Shown piece by piece: positions 24,337 through 42,355 of a DNA stretch of 45,180 nt. The position numbers and the translations under genes are program-made. Location: positions 1 through 45,180 of the forward strand of contig CAIUCV010000016.1 in the NCBI GenBank assembly GCA_903897805.1, read 5' to 3'. Numbering within the stretch: the stretch's first letter is position 1; each line of letters opens with the position of its first letter. This stretch comes from Candidatus Yanofskyibacteriota bacterium. GTDB lineage: Bacteria > Patescibacteriota > Minisyncoccia > 2-02-FULL-40-12 > IGHO2-01-FULL-4-A. The notes below the pieces were generated by a model that saw only the letters and a list, made by a program, of their open reading frames with translations, searched no databases and was not told the DNA's origin.

Positions 24337-24488
24337 AAAAAATTTCAGCTAACCGCTAACGCCTACCGCTACTGCATAATCATCCTCCTTCGCCCCGCCA
24401 AGGCGGGACTACGGAAGGACAAGCGAAGACTGCTGTAACTGGTAGTCCGTAAGCCGTGAGCAAAAGTTACATCTTTTTGATGTTAATC

Positions 24489-35104: not shown

Positions 35105-38701
<3,597 letters not shown>

Positions 38702-38708
38702 GCGCTTC

Positions 38709-38948
38709 GCCAATCCCTCTCCCTCAATATTGATCCAGAATCTGACAAATGGGATAGCTCGTAACGCGGAATCCTTCGGAGCTTTCCCTCAACCACAACC
38801 CCGAGTCAATTGACTCGGGGTTGTCCCTTTCAGGGCTTCGGGTCTGCGGGACTCCGCTTTCCGCTACTCGCTATTCACCTCTGCCGAAGGCAGAGGATAC
38901 CCATTTGTTACCAGATTCTTCCTCGATAATTTCGGGAGGGGGATTGGC
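38709..38948 (+). repeat. giant imperfect inverted repeat directly after rpoC
   Basis: GCCAATCCCTCTCCC/GGGAGGGGGATTGGC, AGAATCTG/CAGATTCT, ACAAATGGG/CCCATTTGT, with internal palindrome at 38795-38824 and hairpin CCTCTGCC-GAA-GGCAGAGG. Confidence 0.75.
38795..38824. other. perfect 30-nt palindrome
   Basis: ACAACCCCGAGTCAATTGACTCGGGGTTGT. Confidence 0.9.
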
Positions 38949-38972
38949 TCGCTCTGGATTTTTGTTTTCCTT

Positions 38973-39001: not shown

Positions 39002-39415
39002 TTAGACTGTGGCAATCGTGGCTTTGAGGTCGTCAATGCTTATGCTTATTTGGATGGTTGATCCATCCTTCAAAAGCTTTGTGGCGTCCGTCACTCCCAC
39101 GACAACTACCTTATTATATTGACGCTCTTTCTTCATGGCCCACATTACTTGCTCGCGCAGTAGAATAGAGCCGTGGCCCAAAATCCCCCCCGTTTCAGTG
39201 ATTATTCCAAGGCATCCCTGTTCCATCAAAGCTACATCATCGTATTCCGCTTTATCGCAGACAATAATCCAGCCTGACTCGCTCCTTCTCCAGCGATGAA
39301 TAAACTGTGAGTACTCTTCGTACGGGCTGCCGCTAGGTGGCCGAATCGCTGCTTTTACCGTAAAAACAGAAGGTGCGTCCTTGCCCAATCCGGCAATTGA
39401 ACCAACCAGCTCCAT
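39002..39415 (-). CDS. standalone PEP-utilizing enzyme mobile (phosphohistidine swivelling) domain-like protein
   Basis: 137 aa: GWIIVCDKAEYDDVALMEQGCLGIITETGGILGHGSILLRE...KVVVVGVTDATKLLKDGSTIQIS; His of GGxxxH retained. Confidence 0.7.
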   Translation of the reverse strand: MELVGSIAGLGKDAPSVFTVKAAIRPPSGSPYEEYSQFIHRWRRSESGWIIVCDKAEYDDVALMEQGCLGIITETGGILGHGSILLREQVMWAMKKERQYNKVVVVGVTDATKLLKDGSTIQISISIDDLKATIATV

Positions 39416-39473
39416 AATTTGCCTCCGTTTTTATGATAACACGCCTCCTAACAAAATGCAAGGGGCAGGCAAG

Positions 39474-39664
39474 CCGCGACCCCTCCCTAATTTTTCTCTA
39501 TTATCTGCCGACTAGCAAATTGACGAGTTGAGCGTCATTGTTCAGCTGCAATTTGCGGGTCGCGAAGCAGGAATGGATAACCGCAAATTGCTAGGAACAA
39601 TAGCTCAACGAGGAAAATTTGCAGGAAGGCATGATACGGAGAGAAAAATTGGGAGGGGTCGCGG
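39474..39664 (+). repeat. 191-nt giant imperfect inverted repeat upstream of rodA
   Basis: CCGCGACCCCTCCC(T)AATTTTTCTCT / AGAGAAAAATTGGGAGGGGTCGCGG outer arms; inner GTTGAGC/GCTCAAC, ATTGTTC/GAACAAT, GCAATTTGCGG/CCGCAAATTGC. Confidence 0.85.
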
Positions 39665-39703
39665 TAATTTGTATTGCCCCAAAATCTGTTATAAAATCCC
39701 AGC

Positions 39704-40792
39704 ATGCCTTTCCCCTCTTTTTTCAGAAAATTTGACTGGGTTCTGCTGGGAATTATCGTGGCCATTGTTGTTTTAGGTATTGCCACTTTTTGGGGCATCG
39801 GGGCAAAGTCCCACGATTTTGTACAACGGCAAATAATATTTCTGGCTATCGGGATAATAATTATGATCGCCGTCTCATTTTTTGACTATCGCATTTTCAA
39901 AAATTTCTCTTCCGCCTCAATCACCATATACCTGATAACAATCGTCTTGCTCTCTCTCGCCCTGGCATCAAAAGAGATCAGAGGCGTAAGTTCCTGGATA
40001 ATCTTTAAAAACCTTACATTGGAACCGTCGGAGCTTGCCAAACTGGCGGTGCTCATATTGCTTGCGAAATATTTTTCCCAAAAACATGTGGAAATTTATC
40101 ACGCTCCCCATATTTTGGCATCGGGTTTTTATGCTCTGATCCCGGCAGTGCTGACTTTCCTGCAACCGGCGCTGGGTTCAACTATAATATTCATCGTCTT
40201 GTGGATAGCCATGCTGCTGCTTGCCGGAATCAAACGCAAACACCTGCTGATTATTTTGATGGCGGGTTTGGTGCTTAGCTCTCTTGCCTGGTTTTTTGCG
40301 CTTAAACCGTATCAAAAAGACCGTATTGTTTCATTTATCAATCCCTACCTTGACCCGCGCGGGAGCGGTTATAATACCTTGCAGTCAAGAATCACTTTTG
40401 GCTCCGGCCAGCTGGCGGGAACCGTTTTAGATAAACAGAGGGCCTCTTCTCCAGTGCTCGTGCCAGAGCCGTATAACGATTTTGCTTTCTCCACTTTTGC
40501 AAGAAAGTTCGGCTTCGCAGGAGTAATGGTTTTGTTTTCTTTGCTTTTGGCGCTTATGTTCCGCATCGGTTCCATTGCGGCGAGAACGGATAATAATTTC
40601 GCCAAACTTTTTTCGCTTGGCTTTCTGGTTATAATTTTCGCTCACATTTTTATCAACGCGGGCATGAATTTGGGGATACTGCCTATTACCGGAATCCCCT
40701 TCTCATTCCTAAGTTATGGCGGGAGTCATTTGACGATGCTGATGGTAGGCTTGGGCATCGTGCAGAGCATAAAATTACACAGCCGAGGTTAA
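39704..40792 (+). CDS. rodA: rod shape-determining protein RodA (SEDS family)
   Basis: LEPSELAKLAVLILLAKYF, LQPALGSTIIF, NAGMNLGILPITGIPFSFLSYGGSHLTMLMVGLGIV. Confidence 0.93.
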   Translation: MPFPSFFRKFDWVLLGIIVAIVVLGIATFWGIGAKSHDFVQRQIIFLAIGIIIMIAVSFFDYRIFKNFSSASITIYLITIVLLSLALASKEIRGVSSWIIFKNLTLEPSELAKLAVLILLAKYFSQKHVEIYHAPHILASGFYALIPAVLTFLQPALGSTIIFIVLWIAMLLLAGIKRKHLLIILMAGLVLSSLAWFFALKPYQKDRIVSFINPYLDPRGSGYNTLQSRITFGSGQLAGTVLDKQRASSPVLVPEPYNDFAFSTFARKFGFAGVMVLFSLLLALMFRIGSIAARTDNNFAKLFSLGFLVIIFAHIFINAGMNLGILPITGIPFSFLSYGGSHLTMLMVGLGIVQSIKLHSRG

Positions 40793-42004: not shown

Positions 42005-42033
42005 CTGTGTTAATGTAATCAAAAAACCATTAA

Positions 42034-42140
42034 TCTGGCGACTACCTACTTTCGCAGACGGCTATGCCGACTACTATCATGGGCCTTGAAGGATTTCACT
42101 TCTGAGTTCGGCGTTGGAGACAACTGCTTGTCTCCAACCG
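42034..42140 (-). pseudogene. degenerate 5' truncated second 5S rRNA-like copy
   Basis: minus strand CGCCGAACTCAGAAGTGAAATCCTTCAAGGCCCATGATAGTA...TGCGAAAGTAGGTAGTCGCC matches 5S 3' part; 5' part replaced by TTGGAGACAA-GCAG-TTGTCTCCAA. Confidence 0.75.
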
Positions 42141-42235
42141 GAAATTTAGGAAAATTTTATATAATTTTCCGTCAAGAATTTTCGCATGCCAAATGAGAAA
42201 CCACGGGCATTGATGAAGCAAAATTAAAAGCAGTG

Positions 42236-42355
42236 AATTGGCGGCGACCTACTTTCGCATCATGCTGTGCACGATACTATCATGGGCCTTGGTGTATTTC
42301 ACTTCTGTGTTCGGAATGGGAACAGGTGGAGCAACACCGGTATAGCCACCAAATC
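42236..42355 (-). rRNA. rrf: 5S ribosomal RNA
   Basis: minus strand GGTGGCTATACCGGTGTTGCTCCACCTGTTCCCATTCCGAACACAGAAGTGAAATACACCAAGGCCCATGATAGTATCGTGCACAGCATGATGCGAAAGTAGGTCGCCGCC; extended helix I flanks. Confidence 0.95.

Follow-up and report, generated by a model that had tools for sequence, protein, structure and literature searches.

What kind of element is the long inverted repeat that lies immediately upstream of rodA? The window (the whole stretch of 45,180 nucleotides that was analysed) is contig 16 of a 621,693-base genome, referred to here as G000, which is about 90% complete and comes from a family-mate of the Candidatus Yanofskybacteria MAGs. The features that concern us are as follows.

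38694-38963, no strand: a further giant hairpin, from a family other than A, immediately behind rpoC (palindrome score 62 versus 44 in shuffle)
39002-39415, reverse strand: neighbouring gene, 137 aa, PEP-utilisers mobile domain (PF00391)
39462-39680, no strand: giant hairpin including the outermost GGGGCA/TGCCCC pairing (sequence, fold and palindrome score)
39471-39474, forward strand: AAGC, possible remnant of an asymmetric end motif that is enriched in other copies
39474-39498, forward strand: left outer arm CCGCGACCCCTCCCTAATTTTTCTC; its outer 14 nt are unlike other family A copies and common to hairpin type B of G000
39502-39636, forward strand: conserved family A core (TATC-TGCC ... GGCATGATA) with conserved internal loops (covariance model R1)
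39559-39580, forward strand: apical loop GTCGCGAAGCAGGAATGGATAA, 22 nt, near invariant and, among 95 genomes, present only in these hairpins
39640-39664, forward strand: right outer arm AGAGAAAAATTGGGAGGGGTCGCGG
39704-40792, forward strand: neighbouring gene, rodA/ftsW family (PF01098)

Every arm pair that the initial annotation had named for a 191-nt imperfect hairpin (39474-39664) is present in the sequence. CCGCGACCCCTCCCTAATTTTTCTCT, starting at 39474, pairs with AGAGAAAAATTGGGAGGGGTCGCGG, ending at 39664, with one bulged T, and is followed inward by GCAAATT/AATTTGC, GTTGAGC/GCTCAAC, ATTGTTC/GAACAAT and GCAATTTGCGG/CCGCAAATTGC. The loop, put at about 21 nt, measures 22 nt, and the flanking symmetry is real, with the correction that GGGGCA starts at 39462 rather than 39461 (GGGGCA, 39462-39467; TGCCCC, 39675-39680). 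When fold energy was compared with shuffled controls, as had been proposed, the RNA fold of 39455-39685 gave -120.5 kcal/mol versus -63.2 +/- 4.7 for 200 shuffles (z = -12.3). The hairpin is also the strongest palindrome of the window, with a self-complementarity of 90 versus 44 for the best in a composition-matched shuffle. The statement that no ORF explains the structure was borne out: we found no convincing gene overlapping the hairpin, and the ORFs that do overlap it, at 39528-39776 (forward) and 39535-39798 (reverse), look like mechanical by-products. Rfam gave no match to the hairpin at gathering score and none at E-values up to 1. The GTTGAGC/GCTCAAC arms resemble the core-site words of attC, but their strand order is the reverse of that in attC, and an attC-like site was rejected.

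The hairpin is not unique. Four copies of what we call family A are present in G000, and the three beyond the window (contigs 1, 20 and 21) are full and 85-89% identical to the window copy. A covariance model built on the family A core (R1) was searched across the genomes of the order and identified 14 close copies, designated subtype A1 (four each in G000 and G002, three each in G005 and G007), together with about 13 hairpins that form a sister subtype, A2 (G002, G005, G006 and G007). The family as a whole spans these five genomes. Beyond them, a single divergent hairpin was found in G021, which belongs to another family of the same order, and R1 detected no family A copy in 39 other genomes of the order, including three of the same family. 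An exact-pattern scan of 84,980 species genomes returned repeated matches in two Candidatus Yanofskybacteria MAGs; single matches in a gammaproteobacterium and an Oscillospiraceae bacterium are not associated with a hairpin and were attributed to chance. The phages, plasmids and viral contigs searched contained no family A match. Family A is carried by Candidatus Yanofskybacteria and close relatives and was previously unnamed; an open-access literature search produced no description of these hairpin elements. All copies are intergenic, nearly all at different loci, with unrelated neighbouring genes, on either side of them and in either orientation, and thus belong to the multi-copy, dispersed, non-coding elements. 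The genomes are drafts, and draft assemblies are frequently interrupted at repeats of this sort. Genes for cell shape or division (rodA, mreC/mreD, mreB and ftsW; loci L001, L003, L134 and L121) adjoin about 4 of 27 copies, a mild excess by rough count that we do not find convincing as enrichment.

The fold of the core is conserved. Standard pairs make up 96.4% of the pair cells over the 14 A1 copies, as opposed to 35-47% when partners are slid by 1-3 columns. Compensating changes occur in 22 of 56 pairs, compared with 13.2 in shuffles (0/500 as high) and 3-6 when slid, and internal loops stay unpaired across copies, as with GACTA opposite GGAA. Each family A element consists of a core of about 135-175 nt with fixed internal loops and the near-invariant apical loop, enclosed by outer stems that are largely particular to the site. 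All 15 occurrences of the loop word CGNAGNNGGAATGGATA in 95 genomes are at hairpin tips of this kind (its reversed control, 0), and a protein-coding origin of the loop was dropped. In the G021 hairpin (L012, G021:C2:252878-253017), a 24-nt tip comprising the loop and its flanks is identical to that of the window copy, while the stems are different yet complementary; the loop is much better conserved here than the stems. Conservation of a non-palindromic loop suggests recognition by something, since drift and conversion alone do not explain it, and the loop would serve as a specific bait for a protein that handles these hairpins.

The outer stems behave differently from the core. In G000, core identity among the copies on three different contigs (1, 20 and 21) is 99%, whereas their outer arms (TAGCGCGAATCTG, AAGCTTGCCC and GCAACCCG) are each complementary to their own partner and not to those of the other copies. 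For 24 copies, inverted flank similarity had a mean score of 20.1 within a copy versus 9.5 between copies (p 2.8e-13), while direct similarity was 8.8 within versus 8.0 between (p 0.11). Flanks therefore match in inverted and not in direct orientation, leaving no sign of classical target duplication; no direct duplication was detected beside the core in these 24 copies, and none is visible beside the outermost repeat. As terminal inverted repeats, the arms pair in nearly every copy, vary between copies in their outer part, and carry in about half of the copies an asymmetric end motif (AAGCG left, GAGCTT right). AGCG is found in the left arm of 12/24 copies, with 1.0 expected, and GCTC, read inward, in the right arm of 9/24, with 1.1 expected; the two are swapped in only one copy. 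Because about half of the copies keep AGCG/GCTC, part of the arm belongs to the element, and the idea that arms are pure target sequence is weakened by this conservation. By eye, other hairpin families have the same end asymmetry, with AAGCGAGCC on one side and GCTCGCC on the other. The outermost TCAAAAATTACAAACC/GGTTTGTAATTTTTGA repeat of some family A copies also occurs in elements that differ from them in length and interior, and in G000 arms of the sequence GACCCCTCCCYAATTT enclose A and B cores alike. The loop was never seen in inverted orientation to its arms, though template switching can invert spacers.

Comparison of orthologous loci revealed both presence and absence of the element. 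The one orthologous family A pair that was found lies at the class II aldolase gene, where G002 and G007 each carry an A1 hairpin in an equivalent position and with outer arms that differ little. Core identity between the two is only 85%, whereas the core in G007 shares 97% with those of the remaining two G007 copies. Judging from this locus and from the likeness of cores within genomes, cores appear to be exchanged between family A copies. Fast ongoing correction of arms by template switching was rejected, since at the aldolase locus either arm has retained base differences of its own in both G002 and G007. In G000, G005 and G006 the aldolase locus has other hairpins and no family A copy. Downstream of a pfkB-family gene, an A1 hairpin is found in G002 and an A2 hairpin in G006, with different arms. 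After rpoC, the window has the hairpin at 38694-38963, which begins in the last rpoC codons and includes the rpoC stop (38699-38701) in its arm, while in G007 an A2 hairpin lies 7 nt from the end of rpoC. The aldolase and rpoC gaps are thus occupied by different families in different genomes, so that one hairpin family takes the place of another at a given site. They are also layered: a family A copy lies within family F arms in G002, and hairpin E within F in G007.

Several further repeats were encountered. Searches with relatives' elements gave short matches to families B and F in the window at 24378-24413 and 32-73; an F-like repeat lies close to the start of the contig, and matches to F occur at several other contig ends as well. 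In G005:C3 (L020), the left arm of a family A copy is interrupted by an element CCCGTTAGAGAG...CTCTCTAACGGG with ATTCAT(C) repeated on both sides, possibly a true MITE with target duplication, and a similar element is present at the aldolase locus of G005. The stretch at 42023-42118 of the window has 76% identity with the 5S rRNA gene region (42226-42321), is not called by Rfam at gathering score, and may be a degenerate second 5S copy.

Where do the arms come from? The most direct case concerns a hairpin family other than A, found downstream of the pfkB-family gene in G007:C53 (L218) and G005:C2 (L216). Its right arm enters the conserved coding end GGGGCCCATGGCCG, which specifies W-G-x-W-P-L-V-E-V in G002, G005, G007, G000 and G006, and its left arm is an inverted copy of this coding arm at 14/14 in G007 (p about 0.001) and 13/14 in G005 (p about 0.005). 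As the coding side is most simply the original, the left arm of this hairpin arose as an inverted copy of its flank. In family A itself, the arm at mreC (contig 1) begins in the stop codon (p 0.014), a weak hint of flank copying, and no inverted copying was seen at the aldolase locus (p 0.29 and 0.49). Template switching between inverted repeats makes arms alike (PMC8604942, PMC7202029), and in one reported case an arm grew from 5 to 16 bp (PMC8604942). SbcCD acts on chromosomal palindromes in E. coli (PMC3315005). A model search for SbcD, part of the SbcCD hairpin nuclease, was negative in all 46 genomes (0/46) and positive in 13/14 control genomes. SbcD is missing order-wide, mostly from genomes without family A, and the absence of SbcCD can therefore only be permissive.

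Based on these comparisons, the hairpin beside rodA is probably one copy of a dispersed, non-coding, non-autonomous mobile family with homogenised cores and site-specific stems, tolerated without SbcCD. The core would spread between sites by element mobility together with copy-to-copy conversion, and conversion would level out core variants in each genome but spare the older stems particular to each site. Complementarity of the outer stems may be maintained, and their length could increase, when one flank is copied onto the other by fold-back (template switching). Since bacteria do not normally maintain long palindromes stably, many 200-nt hairpins in a small genome are unexpected; they would survive here owing to the missing hairpin nuclease, and a clear prediction follows for genomes with versus without SbcCD. 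A broader proposal, which we put forward only tentatively, is that A, B, E, F and other hairpins form a guild with a common asymmetric end motif, whose members replace one another, nest, and acquire their stems by inverted copying of flanks, which amounts to inverted target duplication. If true, this would represent a novel route of integration or growth for mobile elements, made possible by the lack of the hairpin nuclease, and stems built from the target would explain much of the intergenic variation in ultra-small Patescibacteria.

The layered hairpins could also mean that the core inserts into pre-existing hairpins, such as terminators or older elements, with the outer stems belonging to the target. 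The nesting of A within F in G002 and of E within F in G007 is what would be expected, as are the GACCCCTCCCYAATTT arms around both A and B cores in G000. We nonetheless consider such insertion doubtful: no core-less, arm-only hairpin was found for the GACCCCTCCCYAATTT arms, the arm at the pfkB-family gene is conserved coding sequence, and the conserved end motifs lie inside the arms.

A similar standing is given to a REPIN-like element that is mobilised in trans by a Y1 (REP-associated tyrosine) transposase encoded as a single copy and whose single-stranded DNA hairpin is recognised by its ends or loop. REPINs are broadly similar in being short, dispersed hairpins (PMC3116915), and both the asymmetric end motif and the lack of direct target duplication, as fits recognition of single-stranded DNA, are in its favour. 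Y1_Tnp genes are found in all five A-bearing genomes of the family (G000, G002, G005, G006 and G007) and are absent from the three A-free ones, although in a sample as small as eight genomes the exact chance of a perfect match is about 1 in 56, ignoring relatedness. The nearest NCBIfam model to the G000 Y1 protein is REP_Tyr_transpos, with a score below cut-off. What makes a Y1-driven element improbable is that many members of the order have Y1 genes without family A, and that the Y1 genes checked adjoin short palindromes of their own, such as ACTTAGAGGCTCAGCCTCTAAGT; at 11 Y1 loci there was no R1 match and no family A hairpin within about 1-2 kb. At the Y1_Tnp loci L103-L106, 23-bp palindromes of the form CTTAGnnGYTCARCnnCTAAG lie on the flanks of the genes and overlap them close to the gene ends; their middle letters covary from gene to gene, and they are apparently the REPs of these RAYT-like genes. 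No mobilising enzyme could be tied to family A. A lone reverse transcriptase, below all NCBIfam cut-offs, is encoded once in each A-bearing genome, but also in most A-free genomes, and is uninformative as a mobiliser. The one in G002:C1 (L175:540-1550) has 336 aa with a YSDD motif and lies about 3 kb from a family A copy.

Selection on a transcribed RNA, regulatory or trans-acting, would account for the strong covariation, the conserved internal loops and a near-invariant loop that is kept in G021 despite different stems. A structured RNA family is still quite unlikely, given that the copies have no fixed relation to genes or orientation, that Rfam contains no match, and that promoter-like matches around the hairpin are not above chance; a DNA hairpin kept by template switching would covary too. 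The initial annotation had offered a structured regulatory RNA of rodA and a MITE-like element as its two ideas, to be checked through further copies, covariation and target-site duplications. The first two were found, in the numbers given above, and direct flank similarity was no better within copies than between them. For the RNA idea, the conserved fold stands and the link to rodA does not: neighbours are unrelated, no orthologous copy of the window hairpin was found directly upstream of rodA in the relatives checked, and an RNA specific to rodA is unlikely. 'MITE-like' holds in the broad sense of a short, non-coding, dispersed inverted repeat, and is not borne out in the strict sense, as no direct target-site duplication was found and no full-length transposon with the same ends was met in the loci examined. 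A classical MITE, that is, a deletion derivative of a DDE transposon with long terminal inverted repeats, is very improbable even though the copies are short, non-coding and numerous with terminal inverted repeats, and some share the outermost TCAAAAATTACAAACC/GGTTTGTAATTTTTGA with elements of other length or interior, because no direct duplication lies beside the core or the outermost repeat, conserved internal and apical loops with compensating stem changes are unexpected in a decaying deletion derivative and, a weak point, no full-length partner was met in the loci examined.

Returning to a mobile family with homogenised cores, we compared it with known systems. ERIC-type palindromes and other bacterial MITEs are intergenic imperfect palindromes of 100-300 nt present in many copies. 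Family A differs from these (for ERIC, from its general description) in the compensating stem changes with conserved loops, the inverted similarity of flanks, and the exchange of cores within conserved stems. With REPINs, REPs and their RAYTs it shares a short, intergenic, dispersed, hairpin-forming and non-autonomous element with no direct target duplication seen, as well as a single-copy Y1 transposase in the same genomes (PMC3116915), though the REP_Tyr_transpos model is matched only below cut-off. A REPIN consists of two short inverted REPs, 71 bp apart in the type case (PMC3116915), whereas family A elements are about 200 nt long, form one long multi-loop stem with variable ends and outer stems particular to each copy, and are not located beside Y1 genes, which have other palindromes. 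Quasi-palindromes that evolve by template switching resemble family A in having complementary arms, which in their case become so by copying of one from the other (PMC8604942, PMC7202029). Unlike them, family A is a dispersed element with a conserved core, in which template switching, if any, leaves the conserved internal loops unrepaired.
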